Source of the DNA: Strigamia acuminata
Taxonomy: Eukaryota > Arthropoda > Chilopoda > Geophilomorpha > Linotaeniidae
Reading direction: 5' to 3'
DNA length: 64,000 bases
NCBI GenBank assembly: GCA_949358305.1
Contig: OX442314.1
Span: forward strand, 41,176,581-41,240,580
How positions within the stretch are numbered: position 1 is the stretch's first letter; every line of letters starts with the position of its first letter. Below the pieces are notes generated by a model. It saw only the letters and a program-made list of their open reading frames with translations. It searched no databases and had not been told where the DNA came from. The translations under genes and the position numbers were made by a program. Below are positions 4,051 to 64,000 of the stretch, one piece after another.

Positions 4051-4119
4051 ATGTTTCTTCAAAATCGATTCCAATGCAAGATGTTCATACGGAAAAGTAT
4101 AAATCAGACAAAATTGACT
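4051..4119. repeat. About 69-bp direct repeat (second copy 4241-4310)
   Basis: ATGTTTCTTCAAAATCGATT... recurs 190 bp downstream as ATGTTCCTTCAAAATTGATT..., with a handful of differences over about 69 bases. This is a local tandem-like duplication between the YqaJ and THAP relics. Confidence 0.65.
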
Positions 4120-5051: not shown

Positions 5052-5069
5052 AAAATTCAAGATTAAAGT

Positions 5070-7033: not shown

Positions 7034-7422
7034 AATGTCAATAGTCTAATGACCAAGCGATTAGCACCGGATGGCGACTTGAAAACCCACTTGCGCTTCT
7101 ATTTCGATACCGTTCGAATTCTCGACGAAAACGCCACGAAAATCACGAACGATAAACTTGCAACGACCGCATTGTTGCTCAGCTTGCCAGACAAATACGC
7201 AAGCATTCGCTGCGCAATTCGTGCGTTATCCACGATGCCGGCACTCGCCGAAGTCGCCCGAAAACTTCAAGACGACATGCACGGCAGAGAAGCCGCCGCC
7301 GCACTTTCCACGCCAAAATCGGATGCCGCTCAAGACGCGATGTTCGTACAATCGAGGAATAAATCGAAAAACGACAAGAGCAAAAGCAATCGAAAGCCAA
7401 ACAAAAATGGCACGGACACGAA
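7034..7422 (+). pseudogene. Ty1/copia gag fragment
   Basis: The frame opened at 7049 gives copia-type Gag C-terminal sequence (LKTHLRFYFDTVRILDEN, LLLSLPDKYASIRCAIRAL). It is followed by a basic linker that should lead into a CCHC knuckle. At about 7405-7425 the frame shifts: the pol frame reads HGHEMADCF, the end of a knuckle (GH...C), but the first two Cys are gone. A short deletion has thus removed half the knuckle. There is no start or N-terminus. Confidence 0.75.
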
Positions 7423-10400: not shown

Positions 10401-10719
10401 ATCAGACGCATCTCGTGAGGCAATTTGCCTAAAGAATTTTGTACAAGAAATCCAAGAACGCGAGGAGCCACCGATCACGATTATCTACAACGATAACCAA
10501 GGAGCTCAACGATTAGCTTCAAATCCCGTGCACCACTCGAGAACAAAACACATTGATGTTCGTTACCACTTCGTTCGAGAAGCGCAAGAAAATGGTCAGG
10601 TAAAAATCGTATACCTACAAACGGACGAGATGCCAGCAGACATATTTACAAAGGGACTTTTCGCACCAAAACACGAAAAATTTGTTTTGAAATTGGGATT
10701 AGTTCGAATTTACTCGTAA
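7423..10719 (+). CDS. Ty1/copia polyprotein (PR-IN-RT-RNase H), open 1098 codons
   Basis: A single open frame carries all copia pol domains in copia order. Protease: ILDSGATSHMC, near residue 47. Pre-integrase H..H..C..C: WHEKFGHL ... CEICIKGK. Integrase core with D, D and E: LIHSDVCGP, FRSDNGKEY, PEQNGVSERKNRT. Reverse transcriptase: LVAKGFSQRPGIDF, MDVITAFLHGEL, YVDDLVIA. RNase H: GYADADWAGD, ALSSTEAEYMA, RTKHIDVRYHF. It ends 18 bases before the 3' LTR. Pol looks intact, but the element lacks a 5' LTR and a complete gag, so it is a 5'-truncated copy. The first Met is only the first in frame; translation would normally come from a Gag-Pol precursor. Confidence 0.93.
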   Translation: MADCFFHKKQQKAGQSEKSSVARSFFVEEDGKNETVASVQENPNEWILDSGATSHMCADEEKFVEIDRNERRNIKLASSATSKSNGLGTVVFNDENGEVVKLAKTILVPDMRTNLMSVSKITDKGFGVYFDDESAEIINRKTQEVVVTAKRKGNLYFVAESKERANALKTQSKLQQWHEKFGHLNETDLKKLVRNNLVDGITFKPDEKLETCEICIKGKQSQTPFPKKSETISKNLLDLIHSDVCGPMQVQSFGGARYFVTFIDDKSKWGAVYFIKKKSDVLSVFKLFKNEAETKTGRKVKTFRSDNGKEYCNGDFDRYLQENGIKRQLTVNYTPEQNGVSERKNRTLVEMARCNILGSKLPRSFWAEAVFTANHVRNRCPSKSINGEIPYTIWNDGVKPTVKYFQKFGCKAFCLDKTSKRGKFDSKSIECVFTGYDNNSKAYRLYNIEKRIFIKARDVKFVNEDAEVENENEDEHENDREIYIPEMKRTDEPTENEIPDQIDDAETENQVENHENEPEVAPNRIDAPQQFKRGPGRPSLVKTGKRGRPKKVYQNVPVAPVQTEDEIEDEFVNFVEYGDPVTAKEALENDHANEWRAALKSEYDALIKNGTWEEVERPKNRKTIESRWVLKTKQNSDGSINIRKARLVAKGFSQRPGIDFNETFAPVARSNSIRMIMALAVENDLSVDHMDVITAFLHGELEEEIFMEKPEMFDDIAGSSNDKVLRQKKSIYGLKQSGRQWYKKLDKKLRKFGFKPLNSDPCVYVKKTKNELIIIGIYVDDLVIAANSESMKKIKKSLQQEFEMKNLGAIRYYLGIEIHQNFKDHTITMGQTKYIHDVLKRFDMENCKTIATPLDGNAKLRKSDTKKEDRKTNDFPYQSLVGSLMYLAVSTRPDIAYAVSALSQYNTDFDSTHVMAGKRVLKYLKTTSNLGLKFTKTQEPLNGYADADWAGDLNTRHSHTGFVFKLAGCAISWTARKQKTVALSSTEAEYMAVSDASREAICLKNFVQEIQEREEPPITIIYNDNQGAQRLASNPVHHSRTKHIDVRYHFVREAQENGQVKIVYLQTDEMPADIFTKGLFAPKHEKFVLKLGLVRIYS

Positions 10720-43031: not shown

Positions 43032-43089
43032 TTGGTGCCGAAACCCGGGAACATTTTAAATTCCGAATTCATCTAAAATACTACTAAAA

Positions 43090-46000
43090 ATGGTGAGAAA
43101 TTTCGAGTTAAAGGCCAAAGCATTCCGAGCGGCCATGATGGTCACAGAAACACTCCTGACCACGATCACCACTGCGCTGAATGGGAGAGCTGCAATTCCG
43201 CAAGCCACAATTGAATTATGGCTGCAACAGCTCGAACAAAAGCAGAAACGAGTGCAACTAACGTTTGACGCCACACTGGATCAAGCAAGAAGCGACCAGG
43301 AGATTGACGACACCGTGTTGGCACTCGACGCACTGGAGGACCGCTTGGCCGCATCAAAAGCCGATTTAGGCAGGTACACTCATGCGAATTACCCACCTAA
43401 TTTACCCCAGAATCCACGACCGAACGCGGACGCGCAACCGGCGGACATCGAGACGCTAGCGGCGGCTATTACCGCAGCAGTGACGGCAGCAACACCACGC
43501 GCAACACCGACGAACGGTCAACCATTCATCAAACGTAAGCCACTTGAAATACCTAAGTTTGACGGACGTAAGCCAGAAGAATGGGGAGGGTTTTGGAAAA
43601 CGTTTTCGATCCAAGTCGGCGACGACGAGCAACTGGACGGAACAAATAAACTTTTATATTTAAGAAATTACCTGGTTGGAGAGGCGCTCGACGATATAAA
43701 AGCACTCGAAATCACCGCAGGAAATTACACCGTCGCAATCGCATGTCTGCAGAAGAAATACGGCGATAAAATCGTACTCGAAAATAAATACCTGTCTAAC
43801 CTCATAAATTTGCCATCTGTTAGCAGCGAGCGAGATCGAATGGGTTTACAAAAACTCCACAGACACGTGGAAGTTAACATAGAAAATTTAGCCAACATTG
43901 ACGTGCCTTTGGCAGAAATACAGCGGACCATTTTCCCCGTGCTGTCGTCGGCTGTTCCGCGCAGTATAATCATGGAATATGACAAAGACTGCGACGGAGA
44001 GAGGTCGATAGCAAGGTTGATGGACTGGTTGAGTGATCACATAGCTAAACACGCCAAATACGACATGCTAAAAACCCAATCGAAGCCAGAAACGTCTCAC
44101 AACAAAACGTCGGACAACAATCCCCCCAACAAAGGACGATTTAGTCGAAAAGAAAAGGAACCTCGATCGGGATCGGCGTCGCAACTGTCAGTATTAATAA
44201 TGAAATGTCAATTTTGCGATTCCACAGAACACAATCGGAAAAGATGCCCGCTCACGATGGAGGAGAGACGTAAAAGACTGCAGAAAAAAGGGATTTGGAT
44301 GAGATGCTTGGGGAAAGTGCCCCACAAGACGGAAGAATGTAGAACTCGCATGAAATGCTACAACTGCGAGGGAACACATCACACCCACGTGTGCAACACA
44401 CCAAAAGCTACAGAAGCCAGCGAGGGAATCACCCACACCAATGCAGTCGTCACCACCTGTCCACCCAAGTCCGAATTTTTGATGGTGCAGATGGTGAAGA
44501 TGGCCGGACCAACACACTCAACTTTGGGAGTGTGCTATATCGATGGGGGAGCCCAACGCACCTTCATACGCTCTGAGCTGACTAAAAAACTGAATTTGAG
44601 AATTTTAGGCACTGAAACGATAAATTTGGCCGTTTTTGGGCAAGAGCCCAGATCAGAAGTTCGCAACAGAGTCGAGTTAGTCCTCAGTCCCGCCAACTCG
44701 AAGTCGCCAGCAGTTACAATTGAAGCCATCGAAACTGTCCACGTCACGTCCACGCCCGAAGAACAGCCAAACAAGCAACTAAAAGCAGAATTACAACGAA
44801 GAAAAATCGAAGTGGCCTGCAAACAAGTCGCGTTGCATTCGAAGGAAGTGGACCTGCTAATTGGAGTGGACCATTACTGGCGAGTGATGACAGGACAGAC
44901 AGAATTTTTGGAGGAAAACTTGATTGCCGTAAAGACGAAATTTGGTTGGACATTACACGGACAGACCACAAACGGAACGAGAGTCATTGCTGCACCGGTG
45001 AGAATTAACAAAATTACACTTACCCCATTAACAGATGACCTTTTGCGCCGGATGTGGGAACTGGAACCGATTGGAATCCGCCACGAGTCAGTCGAAACCA
45101 ACGACGACGTTGAAACGTTGGAAAAATTCGAAAAGGCCATCAAGTGGACAGGATCAAACTACTCAGTGGAACTGCCGTGGATCGTGAACAGCAACGAGTT
45201 GGACGACAACTATCGAGGCGCCGAACAACGTATCATGTCACTAATCCGTCGTTTCAGAAAACAACCCAACTTGTACCTGGAATACAAAAAGGTCATCGAC
45301 GAGCAGCTGAGATCAGGCATCGTTGAAGAAATTCCAAACCAAACGGCGACAGGACCCATTTACTACATGCCACACAGCCCAGTCATCAAGGAAGAACGAG
45401 TAACCACGAAATTGAGAGTTGTATTTGATGCATCTTCACATCGGAAAGGACATCTCTCCTTGAACGATTGCTTGTCGAAAGGTATCAATTTTTTTCCGTC
45501 ATTAATATTTGTGCTGTTGGGATTTCGTCTTGGAAGAGTGGCCATCGTGGGAGACATCAAGAAAGCGTTTCACATGATTGAAATCGCCTTGAAGGACCGT
45601 AACGCAACAAGATTCTTCTGGATCGATGAACACTGGGACGGCGTAGGAAAAGCACTGCTGAAAATACTACGACAAACTCGAGTATTATTTGGCGCTACTC
45701 CGAGCCCATTTCTGTTGAGCGCGACCATCCGACACCACCTGCGCAAATTCGAGAAACAGTACCCCAACACTGTGAAGTTGCTGTTGCGATGCCTGTACGT
45801 GGACGACTTCATCTCTTCACTCAAAAACGACGCTGAAGCACTGGTAACATTCCAACAGGCTAATCTGATTTTTGTAGCAGCCGGCATGGAACTCGCCAAG
45901 TGGCAGACCAATTCGCCAGAACTAAGAACAAAATTTCGCGAGGAAAATCCCACTGACTCTCAGCTGATGTCAGATGAAGAGACCAAAGTGTTGGGAGTCA

Positions 46001-48363
46001 AGTGGAACCCAAACTCGGACGAATTGAGTCTGGCGGTCGAAGAAAATTGCCCATCTTGCAAGAAAACAACAAAAAGGGAAGTAATAAAAATAACGTCTCA
46101 AATATTCGACCCTTTAGGATTTGCCACGCCATTCACGGTGACTGCACGAATGTTCTTCCAATCCCTGTGGCTCAAGAACCTGCCATGGGACGACGAATTA
46201 GGCAGCGAATTGCTCACTGACTGGAAAAAATGGACCAACCAAATTCCCACGTTAAGACACATTCAAGTTCCACGATGGTTAGGATTGGACGAATTTGACC
46301 AGTGTGAAGTGCACATATTTTGCGACGCGAGTCCAAAGGCATACGGGGCGGTGGCCTATATACAGAACAGTACTGGTGATTTGATTGAAACGAATTTTAT
46401 AATTTCAAAGTGTCGTGTAGCTCCTGTCAAACCACTAACTCTACCAAAACTCGAACTCATGGGAGCATTGATTGCTGTGCGCCTCTCCGACCAAATTAAG
46501 GAGTTGGTGACGCCAGGTGAAATGTTTTTTTGGACAGATTCGCAAATATGCCTCCACTGGATTGGAAACACGTCCAAACGACCACCAACCTTCGTACATA
46601 ATCGAGTTTTGGAGATAAGGGAGAAGTCAAGGATTGAAGAGTGGAAACACGTGCCTGGAATTGAAAATCCAGCTGACCGCCTAACGAGGGGAATGGACGC
46701 AGAAGCAATGATTTCCGACCGACTTTGGTGGCAAGGGCCAGATTGGCTGCGTGGAAGCCGCCAGAATTGGCCAAAGGTGCTGCCAGATACAGTCGAGGAG
46801 CGAGACGATGAGGAAACTGCAGAAATTCACGTCGAGGCGGTGCAGACAACAACAATTAATATTTTTCCGTTTGACAGGTTTGGATCGCTGTCAAAGGCAA
46901 TCCGAACACTGGCATGGGTTTTCAGGTTTGCAGACAATGCTGGGAAACGACAAACAGATGCCAGCCAATGCGATCAAGGTCCATTGAGGGCAGCCGAGCT
47001 AAAACGTGCAAAACTCAGCTTAATTGGAATCGCACAAACAGAAGTTTATGGCCGAGAAATCGAAAGGATGAAAGATGGCAAGCCAGTTCATGGAGAATCG
47101 AAGCTGCGAGACCTGAATCCTCGACTAAACGAAATGGGACTGATTGAGCTGCGGAATAGACTGCATGAATCGCGAGACTTGCCCACCGCAACACAACCTT
47201 TGATTTTGCTCCCTAAACACAAACTGACTGAACTAATTTTGCAATTCTCACATTTACAGGTCCTCCATTGCGGACTGACATCCACGCTATCCAAATTTCG
47301 GGAAAACTACTGGACACCATCCGCAAGGAGGACCTTGAAGACAATGTTGGAACGATGCGTCGTCTGCAAAAAAATCAACGGCCGTCTGATGCGAGAAGTA
47401 CCAGGCGCCCTCCCAGCCGACAGGACGTCAAAAACTCAACCGTTTGCAGTCACCGGAGTCGACTTTGCGGGGCCAATAATAGTAAAAGGACGGAAAACTA
47501 AATCGTCCGTAGCTGTATTTACTTGTGCAACCATTCGAGCAGTCCACTTGGAATTGGTGCCCTCACTAGCGACTACGGACTTTTTGGGAGCGTTTGAGCG
47601 CTTCATTGGTCGCAGGGGACTACCGAAAATAATATATAGTGACAACGGGACCACGTTCCACCGCGCCCACAAAGAGCTAGCTTCACTCTTAAACCACACG
47701 AAGGACGAGACATTTCGAAATTATTTGGCCCAAAAGGGGATCGAATGGAGATTCATCGTCGAGAATGGGCCGTGGTGGGGCGGGTTCTGGGAGAGGATGG
47801 TGCAGACGGTCAAGAGGTGTTTAAGGAAGGCAATCGGTTCGGCGCACTTGAACTTCTATCAACTCGGAACTTTTCTTGTGCAAACCGAAGCAGTAATAAA
47901 TCGCAGACCGATCACCTACGTGTATGACAACCCAAACGAAATTGAGCCACTTACGCCCGCACACTTTTTGACCGGCGTGATGTTGACTCACCTGCCCGAC
48001 TCGGGAGCAACAGACAGCCTCGAACCGACGCAGAAGCAGTTCATTCGACAATGGCGCTACCAACAACGCGTATTGCTTTCATTTTGGAATCGTTGGTCTC
48101 GGGAATATTTGACGGATCTAAAAATTCAAACGGGCAAATCGTGCGCGCGAGAACTCCAGTTAAACGACGTTGTTATCATTGAGGAACCATTTAAGCCACG
48201 TCTAAAATGGAAGATGGGCAGAGTGGTCGAAGTTAGAAAGGGTCGAGATAATAAAATCAGATCGTGTGAAATGGTGCTAGCCAGTGGAGAACATTTGCGT
48301 CGACCGATACAACGTCTCGTACGTTTGGAAGTGGAGTCAAACGACCCCCGCCCGGCAGTGTGA
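43090..48363 (+). CDS. BEL/Pao Gag-Pol polyprotein, 1757 aa
   Basis: A single uninterrupted frame, with ATG 58 bases past the primer site. Gag with DUF1759-type region (about 150-310; [17 protein letters not shown]). Zinc knuckles [14 protein letters not shown] and [13 protein letters not shown], with a degenerate one between. Protease around residue 485: [14 protein letters not shown], where the family has D-S/T-G-x-Q, so the middle residue is Gly. [30 protein letters not shown]. RNase [23 protein letters not shown]. Integrase with H-H-C-C (HCGLTSTL ... CVVCKKING) and D-D-E ([31 protein letters not shown]). DUF5641-type tail ([11 protein letters not shown]). The stop TGA lies inside the start of the 3' LTR. 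Length is usual for the family. Confidence 0.96.
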
Positions 48364-48855
48364 AAATCGGATGATTTTACGCGTGAATTATTGTTTAGTT
48401 ACATTATTTGATTTGTATTGTTGAATTTATATTGTTTCTTTGTATTTCCATTTTTTATTCGAGATTTCGATATTTTATTTGTGATTTTGCCAATTTGTTA
48501 TAATGTGTCTTTTATTTTCATTTGTATGTTTTGACCTGTTCATTTTTATTGGAATCCTAAATTGTTAATCCTTTTTAATCCGTTTGCATTCCTCCACCTG
48601 GACACGTCATTCCCCTACCTTGCGGACGCTTGTGATTGGTTCTCCGAACTCGTGATTTGCATTTCCTTTTCCCTTTATGAATAGAATAAAATCAGTGTAC
48701 TTTTTCAACTAAAACTGTGTGGTCGTGCTCCTTTATACTCCAACGCCATCTTGGACTTCAACGCGATTTTCAACTGTTACATCCACTTGTAGTCAAGGAC
48801 TTTAGAAATTGATTGGTAAACTTTGAATATCTTTTTATTTACTTCAAGTTTAACA
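48359..48855 (+). repeat. BEL 3' LTR
   Basis: Same 497-bp sequence as the 5' LTR, with ACCAC directly after it. The first bases supply the stop codon of the BEL ORF. Confidence 0.95.
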
Positions 48856-48860
48856 ACCAC

Positions 48861-51800
48861 GTTAAAGTTGCAATGAAAGCAGGAAAGAGTGTTACTCTAC
48901 TGCCTTACATCAAAGCAACTTTGAATGGCCAAAACGTCATTGCTCTGATGGATACTGGGGCAACCCACAGATACATCAGTGGTGGAATGATGAAAAAGCT
49001 TAACCTCATGCGGTTTATGACTCCATTTTTGAAAAACAGAATTGTTTACACTGGAGATAGACAGACACGACCAATAGATACCATCACCATGCCACTTAAG
49101 TGGCGAGGTGGCGAACTTCCCGTGACTTTCACTGTCCTTCCATCAGCTTCAGAATTTATACTGCTAGGCTGTTCTTGGATAGTTGAAAATGACATTGTTC
49201 TCAATCTAAAAAAGAGAGAATACTTCCACATTGATTTTCCACAGAAAACATTTCCTTTCGACGACCCACCGTCGCCGGAAGAAATGGGGAAAGCAATAAT
49301 GGAAAAATGGGATGCTTTGGTTATAGAATCAAAGAAACCTACTGTCTCTGCAGTTGATCTAAACGAGAGATTGTTGGCAAAAAGCAAATTGTCTCCAAAA
49401 CAGAGATATCAAATCTCTCGTGTGGTGAATAAACACAAACATGTGTTTATCGACAAAGCTGGATGCCACCCCACGTTGGAACATCCAATTCCGACTGGAG
49501 ATGCACCCGCATTTCGATGCAAGGACCGACCAATGAACCCCAAAAAGGCGGAGATCTACAGGGAACTGGTCGCTGAATTGCTACAAGATGGATGGGCTGA
49601 ACCTTGCGAAGGGAGTTACAAGAACCCCCCTGTAATTGTTGCTAAAAAGGATGGTGGATACCGTCTTTGCATCGATTTCCGCTGGCTGAACAAAATTACG
49701 ATTAAAGATGTTTACCAGATGCCATCAATATCCATGATTTTGGCTTGCTTGGGTGGAAAAAAATATTTTTCCACACTTGATTTAACCAAGGGTTATTATC
49801 AAATCAAGTTAAAACCAAGTGATAAGAAAAAGACTGCTTTTTCAACTTCTGATGGAACATACCAGTTTACTCGTATGCCCTTCGGTTTGTGCAATGCACC
49901 AAGTGCATTCCAAAGAATGATGGACCAAGTTCTTGGAAATGCTCAACACAAGTGGGCACTCGCTTATCTTGATGATGTCATAATTTTCAGCGATTCTTTT
50001 GAAGAGCACCTCCAACATCTCGATGATATCTTATCGAAATTAGGTGATAATAAGTTAACAGCTAGTCCATCTAAATCTTTTCTCTGCCCAGAAGAAATGA
50101 ACTTCCTTGGTTTCACAATGTCGTATGGGAGTTACAGCCCAAACAATGACAAAGTGGAAGCTATCTTAAAATACCCGACTCCTTCCAGTGTAAAGCAGCT
50201 TCAGCGCTTTATTGGAATGGTGGGTTTTTATGCTGCTTTAATTCCGAAACTGAGTGTTACTCAGAAACCATTCTTTGCGCTCTTGAAAAAAGATGTCAAG
50301 TGGCAATGGTCAGAAGAATGCGATACCGCGTTCAAATTTCTGAAAGATCAACTTACAAAAGGAATAATGCTGCCTCTGCCTGATTTCGCTCGCAACTTTA
50401 CCATCCATACATATGCAAGCTACGGCGGGCTCGGAGCTGTCCTTATGCAATTGGATGACCACGGTGCTCTAAGACCAGTTGCCTACGCCAGCAGGACTCT
50501 GCAAGGCGCGGAAAACAATTATAGCGCCACTGATTTGGAATGTTTAGCTGTGGTTTGGGCTGTTGATAAGTTCAAACCATATATTGAATACTCTGAATAC
50601 CAAGTTCAGACTGACCATCATGCCTTGAGATTTCTCATGACGATGGAAAATCCAGCTGGAAGACTTGCTAGATGGGCAATGAAACTGCAAAATGAGAATT
50701 TCACCATCAAGTACCGAAAGGGCACCGACAACCAAGTTGCAGATGCCCTGTCTAGAGTTTCACTCGATAATGGGAAACCATTAGAAAGTAAAGCAACTTT
50801 GGAAGAGATTTTAGAGCCTGTTGCCCTTGCTTATCTCTCCAATGAAACTGATGACTCAATGTCGTTTGAAAACATTATGTTGCACCAACGTGCGGACAAA
50901 CATCTTTCCAAACTAATTAATTGGCTAGAATTGGATGAGGGTCAACCTCGCCCAGAATTACCCAAAATTTTGGAGAAAAAACAGAAAACGGCAACAAAGA
51001 GCGTATGCTCTCAACCGCCGTCGACTGCCGTTTCGGGTGTTACCACGAAGAAAACCGCAGCGACGACGTCGCAGAAAGTTCTTCGCCCGCCACACAAGCC
51101 GTACGTGCTTAAGAAAAAGGCTGCCGAAGAGACAAAGGCGACCGTACAAAGTACCGTCGACCAAACTCCTCACCAACCACCGACCGCCCGTCCAAGCATT
51201 TCGGAAAGATTGCTGGAAATGCGACGGCTCGTGGCGATCGAAAATCCCACATTGAGTGAACGAAGCGTGAACACCGAAGCGAAAATTCGGTACAGAGCGC
51301 AGAAACACGCGGACCATAAAGACCGAATGGAGAAACGAGACGCCGAGAGAGCGGCTCGTCAGCAGACGACTGCACCATCGGCCACGATCACTTCGAGCGC
51401 GCCAGGCGCACTCGTTGGGAAAATCACAGCTCAAACGGAGAAAACTCCCGACGAGCTACGAACAGCTTGGACGGGACAGTTTGGTTCTCAACAGCCCCAG
51501 TGTTCGTTGAGTCTTGTCCCGAACAAAGCCACGGCGGCCGCAGTCGCGTTTCCAGCGGCTTGCCAAACCCTTCAAACGGCTCAAACGATGTTTGGTGCCA
51601 ATACAGCGGCGACGCCAGCTGTCATTATGCCGCCAATTGTTGGTGAACGCCCGACAGACGTCGTGTTCCAGGGATTCACGGATCCTCCGTCAGTACACGA
51701 CAACAATGTGATCGCCGCCGAAGAAACAGTCGAGACCGCGATGCAAATTGACGGCGCACCAAGCGAAGAGTCGTACACGCCGCCACTGCCAGTCGTTCTC

Positions 51801-51932
51801 GAGTCCAAAGCCACCGCTGCGGAGATGAAGCGCGACAAGAAATCACGTCGCAAACTGACAGCGGAGTTCGTCGACGACAAGACCGAAGGAGAACCGAAGG
51901 GCGACAATACGCCACCCACACCAGGAAAGTAG
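48861..51932 (+). CDS. Gypsy pol, second segment: PR-RT-RNase H with a non-integrase tail
   Basis: Continues the pol frame split by BEL. The upstream ATG at 48813 lies in the BEL LTR and is incidental. Protease: ALMDTGATHRYIS. RT: WAEPCEGSYKNPPVIVAKKD, YRLCIDFRWLNKIT, FSTLDLTKGYYQIKL, MPFGLCNAPSAFQR, YLDDVIIFS. RNase H: HTYASYGGLGAVLMQ (family TDAS, so the first Asp is Tyr), DLECLAVVWAV, TDHHALRFL, NQVADALSR. After a short stretch that looks like the region ahead of integrase (QRADKHLSKLINWLELDEG), the frame passes at about 50970 into some 320 residues of Ala/Thr/Lys/Pro-rich sequence without H-H-C-C or D-D-E motifs. The tail is visibly more G+C- and CpG-rich. It ends at TAG 51930-51932. Confidence 0.85.
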   Translation, partial: VKVAMKAGKSVTLLPYIKATLNGQNVIALMDTGATHRYISGGMMKKLNLMRFMTPFLKNRIVYTGDRQTRPIDTITMPLKWRGGELPVTFTVLPSASEFILLGCSWIVENDIVLNLKKREYFHIDFPQKTFPFDDPPSPEEMGKAIMEKWDALVIESKKPTVSAVDLNERLLAKSKLSPKQRYQISRVVNKHKHVFIDKAGCHPTLEHPIPTGDAPAFRCKDRPMNPKKAEIYRELVAELLQDGWAEPCEGSYKNPPVIVAKKDGGYRLCIDFRWLNKITIKDVYQMPSISMILACLGGKKYFSTLDLTKGYYQIKLKPSDKKKTAFSTSDGTYQFTRMPFGLCNAPSAFQRMMDQVLGNAQHKWALAYLDDVIIFSDSFEEHLQHLDDILSKLGDNKLTASPSKSFLCPEEMNFLGFTMSYGSYSPNNDKVEAILKYPTPSSVKQLQRFIGMVGFYAALIPKLSVTQKPFFALLKKDVKWQWSEECDTAFKFLKDQLTKGIMLPLPDFARNFTIHTYASYGGLGAVLMQLDDHGALRPVAYASRTLQGAENNYSATDLECLAVVWAVDKFKPYIEYSEYQVQTDHHALRFLMTMENPAGRLARWAMKLQNENFTIKYRKGTDNQVADALSRVSLDNGKPLESKATLEEILEPVALAYLSNETDDSMSFENIMLHQRADKHLSKLINWLELDEGQPRPELPKILEKKQKTATKSVCSQPPSTAVSGVTTKKTAATTSQKVLRPPHKPYVLKKKAAEETKATVQSTVDQTPHQPPTARPSISERLLEMRRLVAIENPTLSERSVNTEAKIRYRAQKHADHKDRMEKRDAERAARQQTTAPSATITSSAPGALVGKITAQTEKTPDELRTAWTGQFGSQQPQCSLSLVPNKATAAAVAFPAACQTLQTAQTMFGANTAATPAVIMPPIVGERPTDVVFQGFTDPPSVHDNNVIAAEETVETAMQIDGAPSEESYTPPLPVVLESKATAAEMKRDKKSRRKLTAEFVDDKTEGEPKGDNTPPTPGK

Positions 51933-53054: not shown

Positions 53055-54774
53055 CAATACCACTTTCCCCTACTCATTCTTGCCTCAACTAGATAGTTCC
53101 TTTGTATTTTTCTTCGACACTGTTCTGTTTGCAATTGAAATTAGAAAGCATGGCGAGGGTCGCTAAGGGATTCATGGAACCATTGAGGAAAGCTAAGCCA
53201 GTGACTGCGAGGTGGAAATTGAATCGCCTTCATCTGATTTCCGTGTGCAATGCGCCATTAAAGCTGCGAAATGTTTATGTAATTTGTTTTGCTAGCGGCG
53301 TGCGAGAGCCCGCTATCTTTCATTTGCATCTCGTGTTAATTATCGTAATAACAAGTTTAGTTTATGCGTTAATTTTAGTTAGGGTTGCGGATTGGTTAAT
53401 AATTTTCAGCCGTAATCCTGCCTTGAGAGAAACGGGGCAAATCTCTGAAGACACCGCCAGAATTAATGGCCTCTCGTACATACAGTATACTGCACATTGA
53501 ATACTACACACAAAGAGATTGCTTCTGCTTATTCTGACGTGGCCAAGAATTCTATTAAAAAATTCACAACCATTTATCTCATCAGTGCTTCGTTATTTTG
53601 TTTTTCATTATTTTATTTTATAATTTGCTAAAAATGATTTATAAGTTTATTCATTATTTTGATGTCATGATTATGTTTCATTCCAGAATTGAAATTATTT
53701 ATTTAATTTAAATTTATTTCTCGGATCGAGAACCTTGTTTCATTTTCATTTTCATTTAGTTTAGTATTTTTCTGGAATGATACAAGTGATATTTCTTGTG
53801 ATATTTTTAAAAGTGCCAGAACATTAGACTGTTGTCCGTCCTTTGTGTCGTCGGTCCCCATAGCTTATAATGTTTGCCCGCCTTGTTTCGTCAATGTTTT
53901 GTCTTGTCTTTTGAGGTATTGAATTTTAGCAATTGAACAGAATTGTTTTCTGTTATGAGTTTATATAATTTACATGAACGATCCTTTATTTTACTTTATT
54001 TAGATTCATTTCGAGTTTAGTTAGCCAGATCATGTTCCTCTTTTGATTTTGTATAATTTCATTGAGTTTATGTTATTGATATTATTGTATGATTTGAGTT
54101 AATTTGCTCTACTTTCTTAAACTTCTATTACCCATTACAAACAAGTAATAAAAGTCTAAGGGGGAAGGTTACCCACCCTATTTCTTTTTATTATTTCAGT
54201 TTAGACTAATCCACCTTTATTTTCTGTTTATTCCTCTCATTTATCGTATCTCCTTTGTTGACTCATCTTTGGTTAATTCATGCGCAAAGACTTCTTTGCG
54301 CATATGATTATTTCTAACAATGAGATCCTTATTTCTACCTTTTACCCCTCAAACCATATTGATTAACCCAGTCACATGACTAAGGTGACTTAATTGATGA
54401 ATTTCCTTTAACAATCACTTCTCGTCTAGCTCTCGAATATAAATGTCGTGGTTTGACATCGACATCATTTTGGTCACGATTTTAACACTCTGGCTAAGGA
54501 GATTCTGTGAAAATCCCAAATTATAAATGTTGAAAGTTCTCTTTTTGATGTAAATTCAGTTGGTTCAGGTTTCGGAAATTTCTAAGTTCTTTTTCAGTGT
54601 GTGAATACAAAATAAATTCTAACTGCTCAGCAAGAGCAGCTCTGCTTGGTTAAAGTGAAAATGTTGTACTGTTTATTCTCGTTGGAAAACGATGTTAAAT
54701 ACACAAAATTAGTTCTTGGAAACAAGAACAAAAATACACATAGTAATTAGTTCTCAGAAAATGAGAACAAAAGT
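53055..54774. other. Region between LTR elements; no gene recognised
   Basis: A frame at 53102-53500 is open but unrecognised. A perfect 24-bp palindrome lies at 54280-54303. TATA-like CGAATATAAATG (about 54435) and AATAAA (about 54611) suggest LTR sequence. The part next to 54774 is likely the far portion of the BEL LTR that continues at 63190 (see there). Confidence 0.35.
54280..54303. repeat. Perfect 24-bp palindrome
   Basis: ATGCGCAAAGA-CT-TCTTTGCGCAT, 11-bp arms with a 2-base centre. Confidence 0.85.
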
Positions 54775-55910
54775 TGTAGTGACCCTAGTGGTCACTAGTG
54801 GAAGAAGTATCAGAAATAAAGTCTGAAAATATTATTTTATTTTAGTTTATTTGGTTTTTTATATTTCCTGTCCCCAGACAAGGAAGTTAAGCAGAGTGGG
54901 AGGAAATGTGGGTGGTTGCCAGGGTAACCAGCCCACAAGCCTCCAAACAGGAAATACATCCTGTGAAGAGTGAGAACTCTTCAGTTTTATGTTCATGTTC
55001 ACCAAGTCAAGTCACACCAAATCTACTCCAGAAATACCAGAATTCTTCATTAGATTTGTGACATTTGGAAACACCATGGAACTCATAATCTTGCTGTGAA
55101 GAATCCAGCTAGATTCATCTTGTGCCACCACAACTAGTGACACGGGAAGCCACATTCTTGCTGAGAGGGATCCAGCTAGAGTTTATTCTTGCAATTGTAC
55201 GAATACAATTGTGAGATTTCATCTTGTCTCAACGACATTGTTGAGAAGGGATATTTGTGTGGAAATTGCCACAAGTTGGAGTCGCAACGGATGAGTTGCG
55301 AGAGAACGTCGGAAGAACGGAAATTAGTCCGAATTCATCACCGAGTCGGAATTAGTCCGTGTCGCCGAGATTCGAGAGTCGAGTCGCGAAGATTCGTATG
55401 AGAAGCGAGAGAGAAGTTGCACGGAAATTTGTCCGTTTCGTCGAGAAAATCTTCGAGAACGGAATTGAGTCCGGCTACAAGTCATCATTAGTCGGAAATT
55501 TGTCCGTGTCGTCGGGAATGAACGCCGGGAGTAGAAAACGAAGATCGGACGTCGCGAACTATTTGTGAACGTTGCCGTAACGTCGCCGTAACGTTGCCGT
55601 AACGTCGCCGCGAAATTCACCGCGAACGTCGCCATTTTGTATTATTTTCTCTTTCATTTCTTATTTAATTTTATCATTTAGTCAAATATGTATGATTTTA
55701 TCACGTATTCCTATTATTTGTATTTCCTTTAAAGCATAGTTTAAGTTAAGAATAAATCATCTTAGAATTTATTTGAGGAATAACTTGTGTTTATTTTCCC
55801 ACCATTTTGAGTTAGAATTAGTAGTATTTTTTATGATAAGTCTTGTCAAAGCATTAGTGAGTGTTGGAATTATTCTTTATTAATTTGAGGAATAATTCAG
55901 GCTCATTACA
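54775..55910 (+). repeat. 5' LTR of the giant-ORF element
   Basis: TGTAGTGACCCTAGTGGTCA ... GGCTCATTACA. Begins with an inverted TAGTGACC/GGTCACTA. Contains a small tandem repeat (GTTGCCGTAAC / GTCGCCGTAAC, four units near 55570) and AGAATAAATC (about 55748). Two short open frames inside it repeat in the other LTR and are not genes. Confidence 0.93.
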
Positions 55911-56159
55911 CCTGGGGGCCCGTTAAAATTTGAACCTTAACAACTTTTATTTAGTTGAGGGACCTAATTTGTTTTGAAAATTATTTTGTGAGAGTTAGTT
56001 GGATTGAGGAACTTCTTATTTGGAGTTGTAGTAAAAATAGGTGTGGAATTTTTGTTTTTGTTTGAAAACAAAAAAGGGGGGAAAGGATAACAGAGTTTAG
56101 AAGTAATTTCTCTAAGTTAAGCTGTTTCTTTCTTCACCATCCTATCTAATATTAACATC

Positions 56160-59100
56160 ATGTCTGATCATCATAAGAAACAATTACAAGGACCAGCGAT
56201 GGAAGTTCAACAATCATCATTGAGATTGAAAAGATATAGTTTGCCACCACATTTGGGATTGTTACACCACACAGAAGATATGTCGTCTCCGATTGCCATT
56301 AAGAACACAGATGACAGAAAACATTCCAAGATTGTTCAACGGGATCAAGAATTTTTTTTTCAAGATTACACAATTAAGATGGCTGACCACCAACTACAAG
56401 CCAGCCAGAGTAGGAGTGGTACATCAACAATCCATGAGACACGGCAATCAAGAGATCAAAATGAAATGCATCATTATTCTTCACCACACAACTATGGAGG
56501 AAGATACGATCAACGAGATCAGGAAGTACCGAAGTACGACATTCGTTATGATAACCGAAATGAGTCGGGACATGATAGTCGGAGCGAAGATAATTCAGAA
56601 AGGAGAAACGACTACAGTTCTGCTCGATATGGAAATTCAGACAAGAATGAGTTACATCACAGAAATGTAGTAGACATTAATACGACCCTGATAACGAAAC
56701 ATCACTATTCGTACAGCAGTCCGAGGAACGAACATCGTCCAACAGGACAAGGAAGTCCATATGATGATGATCCACGTCATAGAGACGCCTCGCACCATCA
56801 TGACAAAATTCGCCGACAAAGCAAATCACGTCACCACGAAGATTCAGATTTGCGAAATGAGTCGCATTACCAAAGCAGCGAATCACGTTTCAAGGACGAA
56901 TCACGTCAACGTGAGGACTCAAACCCGCGAAAAGAGTCGCGTTATCATAAAGAACCTCATCAAAGAAACGAACCACGTCCACAGGACAGATTTGAACACC
57001 AAGATGAAACGCGTCAGCAAAACGAGTATGGTTACTCTTATCGAAATGAGTCGTATCAACGGGATACTCCTCATCAACGAGACGATTTTCGTAACCAAGA
57101 CGATTCGCACCATCATGACGAAACACCGCCTAGTGTGCCTTCACCGCCAGGAAGTAAGATCGAATTAACGAAAATGTCGTTGGAAGAAGTAATCGCCGTT
57201 GCTCAAAAGAGGGGAAGATTACTGAGAAGTTACCAAACCGCAGCCGCGAAGAGAGCGCAAGACGAGGCGGAAACCTCCGGTGAAAATTCCCCGACACAAC
57301 ATAAATTATCGAGAGTTCGTCAGCAAATTGCCGACATCATGCAGGAATCTGAAGACAGCCTCGCAGAGCGACAACGTCAGTACGCTGAAGGCGTGACACT
57401 TTCCGACAATGATGTCACAAAAATCACAGACGCGTTAAAAGAGCGTGCCCAGCGTTTACAGCTTGCCCAGTCGGAGGAGTTTACAATGCTGAAACGACTA
57501 AAGCTGGAGGAAAAGCATGCACGTCAAGCGAAATTCGAGGCAGAATTGGCCAAGAAGGTAACAGAAGAAGAAATTCGTGCCGAAAAGGACAGGTTGGCAG
57601 CGGACATTCGTGCCAAGAAAGACAGACTGGAGGCTGAAGTTCGTGCCAAAAAAGACAGAATAGAAGCGGAAAGAACCCGGCTAGCATCAGTAGATCAGAA
57701 GTTACGTGATGAACGTAAGGCACAAGAGTCCGATCAACGATGCGACGACTCACATCAAAATGAGCGACAGAGACGTGCAAGTTTGCCACCGCCACGTGCT
57801 TGGGACAATGAGGTCAACCAAAAATATTTGGATTTTGGACATTTGAGGCAGAATAAATCCAGCACTCCAAAACCGCAAGAAAGCCGACCAGAAAAGTTCG
57901 ACTTTCCCTTGGAGGAAAAAGTTTCACTTCCCGGAAATAAACTTGGTTCAACAGAAAACGCAATAAAAGAGCAAGAATTTGTCTTGAAACAAACGGATGA
58001 ATGTCTAGCAAAATTTCCATCATTATCCCAAGAATCAGTGGATTTAACAATGCAAACAGTGCAGTCACCAAAACAATACGTACCACGTGCAACATGTCAA
58101 AAGTGTTCATTAAATCGTGCAAGATACTCACCCTGCTACAGGACCGACTTGACACAGTTTGAAGGAATAAGTTCGCCAACACGTCTCAAGATACTAGAAG
58201 TTTCCAACCGGATAAGAGACATCATGCAAGAAGCATGTTATTGCCTCATAGATAAACCAATGTCCCACGAGGAATATGCTGCATGGATAGCTGCGGCGGA
58301 TGATCGAGATCAGCGAGTGGAATGTTACAGATTAGAACAGCAACAACTGCAGGAACAATTACTTGTGGAAGAGCGCAAGGAACGTGAAATAAAATTGGAC
58401 AAAAAACTCGCGCAAATAAAAATGGAGTCTCAAATAAGCGAAGAACAAAATAAATTAGAAGCTAACAAAGTGCAGTCACAACAACACCACGTATCGCACA
58501 CCACATCTTCACTATGTTCATTATCTGAAAGTGCAAAATCCATTCCACGAAGCGAAATTGATCTCACAAAATTGTCGGGAAGCAAGAGGTCCACTCCGCG
58601 CCGTGAAATCGATCTAACATCGAACATTGAATTAATTTCAATAGCAAAAGGAAGAAGTCGCTGGTTAAGGGAGTTTATGACAACCCCATCTATAGAACCA
58701 AGTGATAGCATGACAGCAACAATGGAATGCTCGCCAACACAACTTAAATTGCAAAGAGTAAGGCAACGCATGCAGCATATAATACAAGAAGCAGACGATA
58801 GTCTTGAAGACAGACGACATCGCTATCAAATTGGCAGACCAGTCTCTACTAAAGAATTTGTTGCATCGTTAACTGCAGATTACGACCGCGAACGACGGAT
58901 GAGTCTAGACAAGCTAGAGGAACAAGAATTGTTAAGTCAACTACGTTGAGAAGAAAGAGATTGTTTGATAAAGGCGGATAAGTCGGCTTCATCCAAAATA
59001 TCAGTTGACAGCCCGGCATTATCAACAGTACCTTCGCCAACCCGACTTAAGTTGCAAGAAGTACGTCGCCGTTTACAGACCGAAACTGGAGACAGTCCTG

Positions 59101-62018
59101 CAGAGACGAAACGTCAAGCCAGAGATGACCAGAAAACTTTAAGCTATGGGACCAGTGCTGAGGTAACCTCAAGGAGGAGGAAAAGACATAGCTCACCAGT
59201 GGACTTGGGAATTTCTGAAGTTACCAAAAGATTGTCATCACCAGTAGCAATGAATGCAGTCAAAAAGGCATTAAAAATGTTATCTACATCTGGTCAAGGA
59301 ACAGAAACAATGTCTGAAATGAAGAAAAGCCCAATTCCAGAAACGAAAACATTTTCGATTGATGTTGCAAAAGAGACCCCTTCTGAAAAAATGAAAAAGA
59401 CTGACAGCCTGAACCAAGCACTTGTCGTGGAAGGGAAGACAACGAAACCATCATCGCATGTTGAAAACGAAAATTGTCGTAAAGCATCTCCACCAGCTCA
59501 GAAAGACGCGAAGAAGGCAAAACAAGATTCACAAGAGCTGCGGTACATGGCACAGTCGCAGTGTCCACCAGTTAGGAATACAGCAAGTGTCATGCATCAG
59601 CCGGAAGTTGAACAAACAACTACAGATTCAGCGAGAAATTCAATAAAGCGAGGAAATGACGATACAGAAGATCGTAGAAACAATATGCCAATTTCAACAT
59701 CAACACAGAATAAAATGTTATTTGATGTCACGGACCAGCAGAACCTTCAACGTGAGTTGAACAATCAAGTTCAATTGGTTCCTGAACAACCTGCAACATG
59801 TAACACCATTCTAGAACCAGATGACATCAGAGTGTCCACAGCAAACAGAATACTTGACCGAACAGAAGTTGACACATGTATGGCAGGCTGGCCAAACAAA
59901 AATGATCATCACTATCAAAGAGCAATCGCTTTCGAAAATTTGAGTGATCAAAGAAAGGACATGGATGGTGGACAACAAGATGGAAAAAGTGTGCAAAGTG
60001 CAGAAGACTCACAACGTGCAGAAGACACACAGGTTGTCGAAAGTGATGGAATTACGCAAAGTGCGTCAAGATCGGACAAAGAGCAAGCTCAGGAATGTGC
60101 GCAACCTCTTGATGATGCGAAAAATTTTAATGACACAAAGAACCAAGAGGACGCACAGATTGTGGACAAAATTATCGAATCAGACACAGAAAATTTGATT
60201 TTTAAAAACTTAGAAGAAAATCCATTGCTTTTTCCAAAAAGTGTAGATTTTGAAACTGATGAACAAATTCAACCATTTTCAAAAAAGGGGGGAAGAGTGG
60301 TGGAAAAAGAAAAAGAAAATGAAATTTTGTCATTAAAGAAGCAAGACTTAAACTGCCAAACGGATTCGTCATTTGTCAACCTGAAATCATTGGTAGATCA
60401 AGTAAAGATTCATCATGTGAAACAGCAAACTTCAGTCAACTTGTCATCACCAGCATTATCCACACCTGATAAAGAAAAACCCACTCAAGATGCAGCAGAA
60501 TCTCCGTCACAGTACATTGTCCAGCCGACACTAGCATCAAATGATTTGAATTCTACGGAAACTTCGTCAATTTTACAAAGTCAGAGCACTGTCGACAACA
60601 TTACGTCATCCGTCAAGTTGAGAAATGTGGACATGCGATCACAAGGGAGTCAGACCAATGCAACAGATTTGTCACTGCTTGATGTAACCAGCATGGCGGA
60701 TAAGTCATTTCAACACCAACGGAATATTTTGCCAACTGAAGAATCGAAGTATTCAGTTCAAGTCCAACGAAAAGAAAGTTCCAGAAAATCAGAAAACAAA
60801 TGTCTGGTTCGAGAAACGAAAATTATTCGAAAACAATTTCGAAAAGTGATCAAAAGTCTAACACATAATATGATGTTACAAGATTCCACGTCTTCACCGA
60901 AATCGTGTAGTCAGCAGAATCCAGAGTGGCCCTCCAAATATTTCATCGAGGCTCTGAAGAACATACTGGAAAACATAACTTCCGAGGACCTACAGGAAGT
61001 AAAAATTTTGATCAAAGAATGTTATCAGCGACTGGATTTGGCAAATGAAACACTACACACCAAAAAAAAATTGGAAGAGCAACCAAATCAAATAAGCCAG
61101 GTTGATCAACACATCATGGGGTCCAGTGAAGTTAAACTGACAGAAACAATCCAATCATCTGGAGATACAAAGAGTGAAACTGAAAATGAAAAGCCACTAC
61201 AAACAGATGATTACAAAATGCTTTGCAGTATACAACATACAAGTACAGGATTGAAAGGAAAACCAGAAAGTCAAGATTGCCAAGAACTGACATCAACTGG
61301 TGAAATTGGAAATGAGTCCAAAATTAATTTATCAGATACTGTTAAAAAATCTGATTGTAGCGATTCAGACAGCAAAGCTACAGTGCCCACTAAAGTTACA
61401 ATTAAGGGTACATCTCAGCCAGTTGAAAGTTTTTTATTATCCAAGTTTGGAAGTCAACATGAAGATTTGCCGAGCAGTCAACCGGAAATCCAAAAGCAAT
61501 GGCTCGGAATTGAGAAAATTCCAAGGGATGAAATCACAACAATGGAAAGCCAAAAACCATTGAATTTTGAAGCCGCAAATGCATCTGCTGGGCAACCGCA
61601 ATCAGCAGTGACAACACAAGTGATGAATCTTGCAACTCAGAATGATCAAGATGATTCAGGCAAAGTTTTGCAAGATGCTTGTTCCAGATCATTTGAAAAC
61701 ACATTTGAAGATCAATTGCCTGTTCGAACCAACTGGACCGGTCACTTGAAAGAAGCTGCCGGAAGAAGCGGTTGGCAGGATTTTAGTCCTGGGAGCAGGA
61801 CACCATCTGCAATCACTGGACAGAATCAATCGGTTACGACAAGGAATGATCCAACGAAATCCCAGGACAAACTAATGCAGAACAAAAAACCAGCTCAATC
61901 AATTAGTCGGTTATCCAGAGCAAAGATTGACCCGACAAGAGATTTACTGAAGTTTTCGGTCTCCGAGTCTGAAATCCCCATCAAGGACTTCACCTCGAGG
62001 ATCGATGATGAGGTTTAA
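56160..62018 (+). CDS. Giant element-encoded protein, about 1,952 codons with one in-frame TGA
   Basis: ATG 56160 opens 929 codons to TGA 58947-58949. The same frame then continues at once for a further 1023 codons to TAA 62016-62018. N-terminal 330 residues: very rich in H, R, D, E, S, N (HHRD/ESRHQ-like). Then long charged helices (about 400-560, repeated AKKDRLEAEVRAKKDR). Four related modules centre on SPT-x2-KL-x2-VR-x-R-x3-IMQEA-x-DSL at residues about 376, 671, 857 and, after the TGA, about 958. The remaining 900 residues are Q/S/T/E-rich and look disordered. One CxxC...C cluster (about 645; CQKCSLNRARYSPC) is not a CCHC knuckle. No enzyme motif. It could be a highly diverged Gag or a captured host gene. 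TGA could be a mutated CGA (Arg) or a readthrough stop. Confidence 0.8.
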
Positions 62019-62054
62019 AGAAGTTAGGAACTAACTTCCTAAAAAGGGGGGAGG

Positions 62055-63189
62055 TGTAGTGACCCTAGTGGTCACTAGTGGAAGAAGTATCAGAAATAAA
62101 GTCTGAAAATATTATTTTATTTTAGTTTATTTGGTTTTTTATATTTCCTGTCCCCAGACAAGGAAGTTAAGCAGAGTGGGAGGAAATGTGAGTGGTTGCC
62201 AGGGTAACCAGCCCACAAGCCTCCAAACAGGAAATACATCCTGTGAAGAGTGCGAACTCTTCAGTTTTATGTTCATGTTCACCAAGTCAAGTCACACCAA
62301 ATCTACTCCAGAAATACCAGAATTCTTCATTAGATTTGTGACATTTGGAAACACCATGGAACTCATAATCTTGCTGTGAAGAATCCAGCTAGATTCATCT
62401 TGTGCCACCACAACTAGTGACACGGGAAGCCACATTCTTGCTGAGAGGGATCCAGCTAGAGTTCATTCTTGCAATTGTACGAATACAATTGTGAGATTTC
62501 ATCTTGTCTCAACGACATTGTTGAGAAGGGATATTTGTGTGGAAATAGCCACAAGTTGGAGTCGCAACGGATGAGTTGCGAGAGAACGTCGGAAGAACGG
62601 AAATTAGTCCGAATTCATCACCGAGTCGGAATTAGTCCGTGTCGCCGAGATTCGAGAGTCGAGTCGCGAAGATTCGTATGAGAAGCGAGAGAGAAGTTGC
62701 ACGGAAATTTGTCCGTTTCGTCGAGAAAATCTTCGAGAACGGAATTGAGTCCGGCTACAAGTCATCATTAGTCGGAAATTTGTCCGTGTCGTCGGGAATG
62801 AACGCCGGGAGTAGAAAACGAAGATCGGACGTCGCGAACGATTTGTGAACGTTGCCATAACGTCGCCGTAACGTTGCCGTAACGTCGCCGCGAAATTCAC
62901 CGTGAACGTCGCCATTTTGTATTATTTTCTCTTTCATTTCTTATTTAATTTTATCATTTAGTCAAATATGTATGATTTTATCACGTATTCCTATTATTTG
63001 TATTTCCTTTAAAGCATAGTTTAAGTTAAGAATAAATCATCTTAGAATTTATTTGAGGAATAACTTGTGTTTATTTTCCCACCATTTTGAGTTAGAATTA
63101 GTAGTATTTTTTATGATAAGTCTTGTCAAAGCATCAATAAGCTTGGAATTATTCTTTATTAATTTAAGGAGTAATTCAGGCTCATTACA
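62055..63189 (+). repeat. 3' LTR of the giant-ORF element
   Basis: Same as the 5' LTR apart from some 15 differences, several of them clustered in the last 60 bp (about 63130-63180). Confidence 0.93.
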
Positions 63190-63404
63190 AAGTTTAAAAA
63201 GGTCACAGACCCAAAACCATACAAAAACGTCACCACATCTGGTGTAACTTAAAAGACAACAAAGACTCGGGTTTTTCCTTCAAAATTTCGCAGAAGGCAA
63301 TTAAAAACGGATTATAAAAAAAATCCAAATATTCCCAACACCAATTTAACAGAAATTCAATAATAAATCAAAATCAATTATTTTAATAAAACACTAGTTT
63401 TCAC
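63190..63404 (-). mobile_element. Part of a BEL/Pao 3' LTR, interrupted by the giant-ORF element
   Basis: On the minus strand the sequence begins TGTGAAAACTAGTG directly after the integrase end, just as the other BEL LTR begins CAG/TGTGAAAATC. It runs to the AAGT duplication at 63190. The rest of this LTR should therefore lie left of 54774. No second boundary was recognised. Confidence 0.55.
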
Positions 63405-64000
63405 ACTGGGGGGGGGGGTCAGTATCATTCTCGACATCATCTTCGTGCGTCTCTAGTAAGCACAATCTTTGAACCGGACGCCGCAATCTTTTTCCGTTAG
63501 CTAGTCTGACCTCACCCGACCGAACTTTCCCATCCCTTCCTGGAAATGTTTCTGTCACTTGTCCCATTGCCCAGGTAGAACGAGGTTGATTCTCGTCTTG
63601 TATCAAAATTACATCTCCCTTTTTTAACTCTCTCCGTTCTCGAGCAGTTCTAAATACTCTCAACTCGGTCAAATACTCCTTTCTCCACCTCCCCCAAATA
63701 TGTTTTGCCAACTTTTCCCTTAATTTCCATCTCTTCAGCAGTTCGGCAGAATGTGATGTCAACTGTTTTGTATCAATCTGAAAAGCATCTGGGAGGTTTA
63801 TTTGGCGTTTACCGACCAAAAAATGGGAGGGGGTCAAGGGTTCACACTCACTTGAGTCGGCGTAGACATAAGTGATGGGCCGTGAATTGATCATGGCCTC
63901 CACCTCGCATAGGACGGTGGTCAACTCCTCAAAAGTGAGAACACGTTTCCCCAAAATCTTTTTTAAGCAAGTTTTGACAGACCGAACCATGCGTTCCCAA
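63394..64000 (-). CDS. BEL/Pao integrase C-terminal end, leaves the window
   Basis: Minus-strand frame open from the right edge to the stop at 63394. It starts WERMVRSVKTCLKK (integrase Glu motif region, compare [12 protein letters not shown] in the BEL at 47790). It continues MINSRPITYVYADSSECEPL, PSHFLVGKRQINL, IWGRWRKEYLTELR and the DUF5641-type STWAMGQVTETFPGRDGKV, ending DPPPQCEN. The stop lies at the LTR border, as in the other BEL element. It looks undamaged as far as visible. Confidence 0.93.
   Translation of the reverse strand, partial: WERMVRSVKTCLKKILGKRVLTFEELTTVLCEVEAMINSRPITYVYADSSECEPLTPSHFLVGKRQINLPDAFQIDTKQLTSHSAELLKRWKLREKLAKHIWGRWRKEYLTELRVFRTARERRELKKGDVILIQDENQPRSTWAMGQVTETFPGRDGKVRSGEVRLANGKRLRRPVQRLCLLETHEDDVENDTDPPPQCEN

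Follow-up and report, generated by a model that had tools for sequence, protein, structure and literature searches.

A giant, partly Gag-derived open reading frame kept open under weak amino-acid constraint in a putatively trans-mobilised long terminal repeat retrotransposon family of Strigamia acuminata

Among non-autonomous long terminal repeat (LTR) retrotransposons, the LARD and TRIM elements use the enzymes of a partner and are defined as non-coding, and the TR-GAG elements of plants have a coding frame in which a recognisable Gag domain is kept. A further kind is the mouse IAP 1-delta-1 element, in which, according to passages of PMC6466679 and PMC7411935, an internal deletion gave a fused gag-pol open reading frame (ORF), proteins of full-length relatives are needed in trans, and action in cis is ascribed to the fusion protein; the same passages name this element as the cause of most new IAP insertion mutations. 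Here we describe the 8.4-kb LTR element at positions 54775-63189 of a 64,000-nt stretch of the genome of the centipede Strigamia acuminata (contig OX442314.1, positions 41,176,581 to 41,240,580 of the forward strand; this whole stretch is called the window), the interior of which is one long frame (56160-62018, about 1,952 codons), together with the family to which it belongs. In the copies of this family the frame is kept open while the amino-acid constraint is weak. We consider it moderately probable that the family is a trans-mobilised deletion-fusion derivative of a 14-kb gag-pol-ORF3 element of the Ty3/gypsy type, selected mainly for its open frame.

As in IAP 1-delta-1, parts of the parent genes (the Gag N-terminus, the pol tail and the ORF3 tail) are fused in one frame; the differences are that the partner here is of the Ty3/gypsy type with a third ORF, that there are several diverged groups and repeated Gag modules, and that the capsid, the zinc knuckle and all enzymes have been lost from an ORF whose amino acids are weakly constrained. 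The family shares with TR-GAG a non-autonomous nature and a coding frame, but the ORF of the window copy has no Gag domain recognised by Pfam (E <= 1), and a whole gag is kept in a chimeric copy (L038, see below); it differs from LARD and TRIM in that 1446-2003 codons are open in 27 of the 33 in-family copies. The Retand elements differ from the present family: according to passages of PMC11963269, a long region follows pol in them, in which potential coding sequences run antisense to gag and pol. A fused ORF is also maintained in defective-interfering RNA of coronaviruses, but this is an RNA virus and not a retroelement, and the likeness is one of mechanism only. Among the titles and abstract beginnings of the best matches in the open-licence literature, no non-autonomous LTR family with an ORF kept open without amino-acid constraint was found.

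The features of the window element are as follows.
54771..54774, no strand: target-site duplication (TSD) AAGT, left copy
54775..55910, + strand: 5' LTR, 1136 bp; 85% identity to the 14-kb partner's LTR over nt 1-211
55913..55923, + strand: primer binding site TGGGGGCCCGT, perfectly complementary to the 3' end of tRNA-Pro(AGG) with CCA added
55928..55936, + strand: second tRNA contact ATTTGAACC, nine bases fitting the T-arm of the same tRNA-Pro, also present in the partner
56160..58946, + strand: giant ORF, piece 1, 929 codons, ended by an in-frame TGA
57117..57773, + strand: Gag N-terminal module 1, 60.7% amino-acid identity to residues 94-299 of the partner Gag
57855..58475, + strand: degenerate Gag module 2, 24-29% identity to partner Gags
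58479..58946, + strand: degenerate Gag module 3, 29-31% identity to partner Gags
58950..62018, + strand: giant ORF, piece 2, in the frame of piece 1; codons 58950-62015, TAA 62016-62018, 36 nt before the 3' LTR
58950..60017, + strand: degenerate Gag module 4 and the Gag coil/linker region after it, 22% identity, E 1.5e-20 to gagB
60228..60319, + strand: pol-end segment, 92 nt, 78% identical to the partner pol end, with an internal polypurine tract AAAAAAGGGGGGAAGAG at 60281-60297
60741..61064, + strand: segment common with the non-autonomous family L027, 80% nucleotide identity, flanks poorly alignable
61797..62009, + strand: ORF3-like tail, 27.5% identity to the C-terminus of the partner ORF3, E 1.6e-4
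62041..62054, + strand: 3' polypurine tract (PPT) AAAAAGGGGGGAGG, one base different from the partner tract
62055..63189, + strand: 3' LTR, 1135 bp; last 87 nt 98.9% identical to the LTR ends of partner L018/L019, unlike its own 5' LTR
63190..63193, no strand: target-site duplication AAGT, right copy

With two LTRs, the TSD, the tRNA-Pro primer site and the PPT, the element is a genuine mobile LTR retrotransposon, as an earlier note on this DNA had proposed, and it belongs to an amplified family. Candidate tRNA-Pro genes were located with a T-arm/acceptor pattern (five sites in the genome), at three of which ARAGORN found tRNA-Pro, with the anticodon AGG at two; both tRNA-Pro(AGG) genes end in ACGGGCCC, and once CCA is added to this end, the primer site is complementary to it without a mismatch. 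The two-part match to tRNA-Pro resembles the bipartite primer site of yeast Ty3. Three alike A5-6G6 purine tracts are present in the element, in the leader (56070-56086), in the ORF (60281-60297) and as the 3' PPT, and plus-strand DNA may be primed from them at several places. There are 14 differences between the two LTRs over 1136 alignment columns, and 7 of these fall in the last 56 columns.

The length of about 1,950 codons given by the earlier note was right, but the frame is not continuous in the window copy, because an in-frame TGA (58947-58949) cuts it into 929 and 1022 codons; open copies are found elsewhere. The product is non-enzymatic as had been stated: neither piece matched any Pfam family at E <= 1, the capsid, the zinc knuckle and every enzyme domain being missing, and piece 1 as the query had no relative in the protein database at E <= 1 (7,994 candidates scored). 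In BLASTP comparisons with the partner described below, residues 320-538 of piece 1 matched residues 94-299 of Gag (60.7%, E 6e-72), more stretches of both pieces resembled the N-terminal and middle parts of Gag (20-37% identity), and residues 346-465 and 950-1020 of piece 2 matched the ends of pol (35%, E 2e-12) and ORF3 (27.5%, E 1.6e-4), respectively; since SEG and composition correction were off, the weak matches in low-complexity parts need caution. Judged by these matches, the giant ORF is a mosaic of repeated Gag N-terminal modules, a pol tail and an ORF3 tail, so that the very diverged Gag considered previously accounts for part of its ancestry and leaves out the two tails. As counted with the motif SPTxxKL, there are four modules in the window copy, three in copies C8, C3, C135 and C1_39, and two in the copies of group F. 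Module 1 was present in two of the eight derivative copies compared (window and C1_39). Its differences from the partner Gag are mostly at third codon positions (omega, the ratio of nonsynonymous to synonymous rates, 0.17), and module 1 is therefore probably a recent capture from a related autonomous element.

An autonomous partner with the same LTR ends and primer site, for which the earlier note had advised a search, was found as a 14-kb pol-bearing relative. The LTR start of the window element also occurs on elements with a spacing of about 14 kb, and two of several such end pairs were read (L016/L017 and L018/L019). In L016/L017, the LTRs are 99.8% identical, the Gag frame (1323 codons) has Retrotrans_gag and a CCHC knuckle by Pfam, pol has protease (PR), reverse transcriptase (RT), RNase H (RH) and integrase (INT) in the order PR-RT-RH-INT, and a third ORF (L017 3026-6250, + strand, 1075 codons) has no clear Pfam match. 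From its domain content and order the partner is classified as Ty3/gypsy type, an order that retroviruses have too; the Pfam models that it matches look Ty3-like, IAP being a class II endogenous retrovirus with betaretrovirus-like pol ancestry. The partner Gag as the query gave nothing in the protein database at E <= 0.001 (8,000 candidates scored). The LTR ends, the primer site and the second primer contact are the same in L016/L017 and the window element, and the PPTs are one base apart; copies L020 and L026 of group F have a shorter first contact with the primer (only TGGGGGCC). Nucleotide matches between the window element and the partner cover LTR positions 1-211 (85%), the LTR end with the leader (86-87%), 522 nt of gag (72%), the 92 nt of the pol end with the internal polypurine tract (78%) and the 3' PPT. 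Among the best 40 of 75 candidates for matches to the LTR end (unique 5' region, U5), five lie in a row about 14-15 kb apart (G000:C1:35703990-35761493), which may represent autonomous elements arranged in tandem with common LTRs.

Other copies, which the earlier note had proposed to look for, were searched in the genome (237.5 Mb, 157 contigs) with a 99-aa segment of the ORF (window 60786-61082) as the query. There were 38 matches (all 40 candidates scored), 33 of which were judged from frame length and identity to be in-family copies. In six of these the frame has an in-frame stop (window, C1:9.30M, C1:39.2M, C2, C10:8.78M and C10:1.16M) and in the other 27 it is uninterrupted; group F comprises 18 copies with a 1446-codon frame. 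Open frames were confirmed directly in the sequence for L013, L020, L021, L023, L026, L027, L032, L033, L036 and L039. The five matches outside the family were L027 (related family, 1045 codons), a relic at C6:15.02M (two matches), the chimera L038 (C6:12.51M) and a weak match at C1:19.59M. The LTR pairs differ at 0 of 1146 columns in C8, 2 of 1152 in C3, 1 of 1139 in C1_39, 0 of 1160 in F1446 and 0 of 1116 in C5, compared with which the window copy is somewhat older; since C8, F1446 and C5 have no LTR differences, the divergence among them arose while they were being copied. A 4-bp TSD flanks all six derivative copies (these five and the window copy) and both partner copies. The copies are also mosaic, C1_39 being 98.9% identical to the window copy in one half and 87.6% in the other. 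The 12.3-kb copy at C1:9.30M was considered as a pol-bearing long member and rejected: the insert between its 5' LTR and ORF (in L015, G000:C1:9301801-9308800) is a DDE_Tnp_4 DNA transposon with a YqaJ-like exonuclease gene beside it, and no pol was seen there. L036 (G000:C3:24910000-24919900) is a tandem pair of F-group frames inside a 3121-bp repeat (100%). L027 (G000:C3:628000-637000, at 2280-5414) represents a second non-autonomous family with another LTR (TGTGGTGGCC...), a single 1045-codon frame that stops about 60 nt short of the 3' LTR, and a few segments in common with the window element.

A link between the family and its gag-bearing relatives is seen in L038 (C6:12.505-12.514M), which has a leader and a complete gag that is 60% identical in amino acids to gagA, with a nucleotide match of about 85 nt extending into the start of pol. 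From its position 4541, L038 has the 3' tail of group F, the PPT and the first 350 bp of the LTR (95-98% identity), beyond which the LTR departs from the F type (68% over the last 204 nt); its two LTRs are identical over the 646 bp compared. As judged from this arrangement, L038 is a recombinant of a gag-bearing relative, which is not L016's own family, and the F group, and such a structure would be expected if the template was switched between two RNAs packaged in the same particle. Among the best 40 of the 75 U5 candidates, the last 72 nt of the 3' LTR of the window element are identical to those of the 14-kb elements and of the C3 derivative, against 90% identity for its own 5' LTR over this part; another possible source of this end is gene conversion of the inserted copy. 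The chimera and the common U5 ends suggest co-packaging with gag-bearing relatives. From the common ends, primer site, PPT and U5 ends, the near-identical LTR pairs, the lack of enzymes and the recombinant copy, we infer that the family is a non-autonomous derivative of the partner and is mobilised in trans.

Selection on the frame was examined with pairwise maximum likelihood under the GY94/F3x4 model for 13 derivative pairs, which are not independent. Omega was 0.56-0.82 in these pairs, including 0.71 for C135-F1446 (likelihood ratio (LR), 8.3) and 0.78 for winB-C8 (LR 2.5), two pairs with non-overlapping paths by the four-point test on synonymous divergence, recombination aside. At a similar divergence, omega was 0.20 (LR 194) for Gag between two autonomous copies; the values were 0.19 for its N-terminal part (the homologue of the modules), 0.28 for the middle, 0.07 for the capsid end and 0.16 and 0.11 for pol, and the partner ORF3 is under purifying selection in the compared part (0.16 over 298 codons; the other ORF3 piece was saturated). 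The changes at the three codon positions are near even in the derivative pairs (157, 151, 170 and 74, 72, 86) and third-heavy in the partner Gag (91, 59, 234). In codons 901-1500, omega was 0.87 and 1.19 in two pairs and omega = 1 was not rejected (p 0.63), nor was it for codons 1-600 (p 0.094), 601-900 (p 0.45) and 1501-1650 (p 0.45). The reading frame is nevertheless maintained. Nine uninterrupted ORFs, one of which belongs to the related family L027, have no stop in the true frame and 57-154 in each of the other two, so that a chance open frame is excluded; 10.5 and 23.3 nonsense changes were expected in the two non-overlapping pairs and none was seen; and all indels were multiples of 3 in two pairs (6/6 and 8/8). 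Thus, of the purifying selection on which the earlier note had made its reading depend, the part that concerns the open frame is borne out; the amino acids are under weak selection, with omega at about 0.7 and close to 1 in the middle.

In the scenario that we favour, proteins of the relatives would package, reverse-transcribe and integrate the RNA of the derivative, the giant ORF of which was probably assembled from in-frame pieces of the relatives' genes by repeated template switching. In the copies that still jump, the main target of selection would be an uninterrupted frame that reaches from the leader to about 40 nt short of the 3' LTR. Most of the amino acids would be left to drift, and much of the protein sequence looks dispensable. 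The most likely reason would be a need for translation along the whole of the full-length RNA if it is to last until packaging, for example because end-to-end translation avoids the decay that an early stop followed by a long untranslated tail would trigger. According to passages of PMC5035971, Rous sarcoma virus RNA with premature stops is packaged less efficiently, which is read there as the RNA being translated and degraded first; according to parts of PMC2925335 and PMC5580461, retroviral RNA with a long tail after gag is exposed to decay, and long 3' untranslated regions call for a stability element. Rous sarcoma virus has such an RNA stability element, whereas the derivative, which is without the partner's gag stop region, seems to run the frame to the end and could meet the need for RNA stability in this way. 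A stricter form of the idea, which we hold plausible at somewhat less than even confidence, is that the ORF is a 'ribosome track', open solely for end-to-end translation and escape from RNA surveillance ahead of packaging, with disposable content renewed by in-frame capture of pieces of the partner Gag.

Several points weigh against selection mainly for openness. Omega = 1 was rejected in 8 of the 13 derivative pairs (2dlnL > 3.84, up to 14.9), the last 350 codons are under mild constraint (omega 0.57-0.76, p 0.022), and omega below 1 means that some protein or RNA constraint exists. Since the copies are mosaic, simple pair paths in the analysis are only approximate. The pairs for the stop count were selected for open frames, the window copy's own stop lying just outside the compared piece, and the contrast in stop avoidance is therefore inflated; six of the 33 copies do carry a stop. 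With MAFFT, the indels in three other pairs were multiples of 3 in only 12/15, 13/18 and 11/18 cases, both ORFs being open throughout, and the remainder are probably misplaced gaps. By the NG86 method, wrong-frame omegas of seven in-family pairs were 0.62-0.97 against 0.50-0.65 in the true frame (wrong-frame controls elsewhere: 0.80 and 1.12 for C8-D1045; 1.11 and 1.94 for Gag), which places the true-frame values near the neutral baseline of the sequence. Data cited in the passage of PMC5035971 on Rous sarcoma virus indicate that packaging does not need translation. Finally, the structure prediction for module 1, performed with no alignment, gave three helices, the last of them about 125 residues long (mean pLDDT 82, pTM 0.46), and this predicted helical, coiled-coil-like form would suit the alternative of a functional fusion protein.

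The leading alternative, which we rate as a lesser but serious possibility, is a fusion protein that acts in cis, in which Gag N-terminal modules bind the nascent RNA and the partner Gag and so draw the RNA of the element itself into partner particles. The recurrence of these modules as ORF content and the predicted helices of module 1 are consistent with it, as are the pairs rejecting omega = 1, the C-terminal constraint, the value of 0.66 in the N-terminal part (p 0.094) and the action in cis ascribed to the IAP fusion protein in the passages of PMC6466679 and PMC7411935. The level of constraint argues the other way, the Gag region homologous to the modules having omega 0.19 between autonomous copies versus about 0.7 in the derivative and near 1 in its middle, and so do the variable number of modules (four, three or two) and the loss of both capsid and zinc knuckle. 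It is improbable that only the RNA sequence is constrained (packaging and priming signals, internal PPT) with the open frame as a by-product: the nucleotide matches to the partner at the LTR ends, the leader, the internal PPT and the 3' PPT, and the 310-nt segment common with L027, which has no clear codon-position bias, would fit, but this would leave unexplained 1446-2003 stop-free codons in copies about 8-13% apart in nucleotides as well as the frame-keeping indels, and stop avoidance disfavours it.

A captured host gene, as suggested in the earlier note, or a protein with a new function of its own that helps the host or the partner, is very improbable. Neither ORF piece has a Pfam match and piece 1, the piece covered by the database search, has no relative, as such a gene might; however, no sign of a host gene was seen, and parts of the ORF can be traced to the relative, to its Gag N-terminus and to the tails of its pol and ORF3. 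The best candidate (60786-61082) was rejected because 37 of its 38 genome matches lie in these elements or their remains, the other being weak (E 0.004) and without a long ORF. The segment common with L027 (80% of nucleotides) has flanks of about 30-50% identity and no clear codon-position bias, and so looks like a swapped module rather than a host domain. Equally improbable is a common defective copy, left when a longer element lost its pol through a deletion, the outcome that would have overturned the earlier note, since although pol-bearing relatives exist and the window copy has a stop, the census of 33 in-family copies in several diverged groups, with near-identical LTR pairs in those examined, refutes a one-off loss in a single copy and indicates an amplified derivative.

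The rest of the window has an animal-type fatty acid synthase at 35627-37810 (+ strand; FAS pseudo-KR, KR and zinc-binding dehydrogenase domains), with ORFs 29881-30423 and 33600-34466 as probable further exons (by eye only), and other retroelement frames: a long open Ty1/copia frame at 7363-10719 (+ strand, 1118 codons; RVT_2, integrase), an uninterrupted Pao/BEL frame at 43060-48363 (+ strand, 1767 codons; Peptidase_A17, DUF1759, DUF5641) and a Ty3-type PR-RT-RNase H frame at 48813-51932 (+ strand; integrase not matched at E <= 1e-5). Directly downstream of the element, 63394-63990 (- strand) matches DUF5641, the domain that also ends the Pao/BEL frame.

If the ribosome-track form is true, this would be a retrotransposon frame selected for openness and not for sequence. 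The dozens of copies in one genome are a natural experiment that parts selection for translation from selection for protein. A frame kept solely for RNA survival or packaging would offer a general reason for long ORFs without recognisable function in some non-autonomous elements, a caution against taking a long conserved ORF for a functional protein, and a testable tie between RNA surveillance and retrotransposon packaging.

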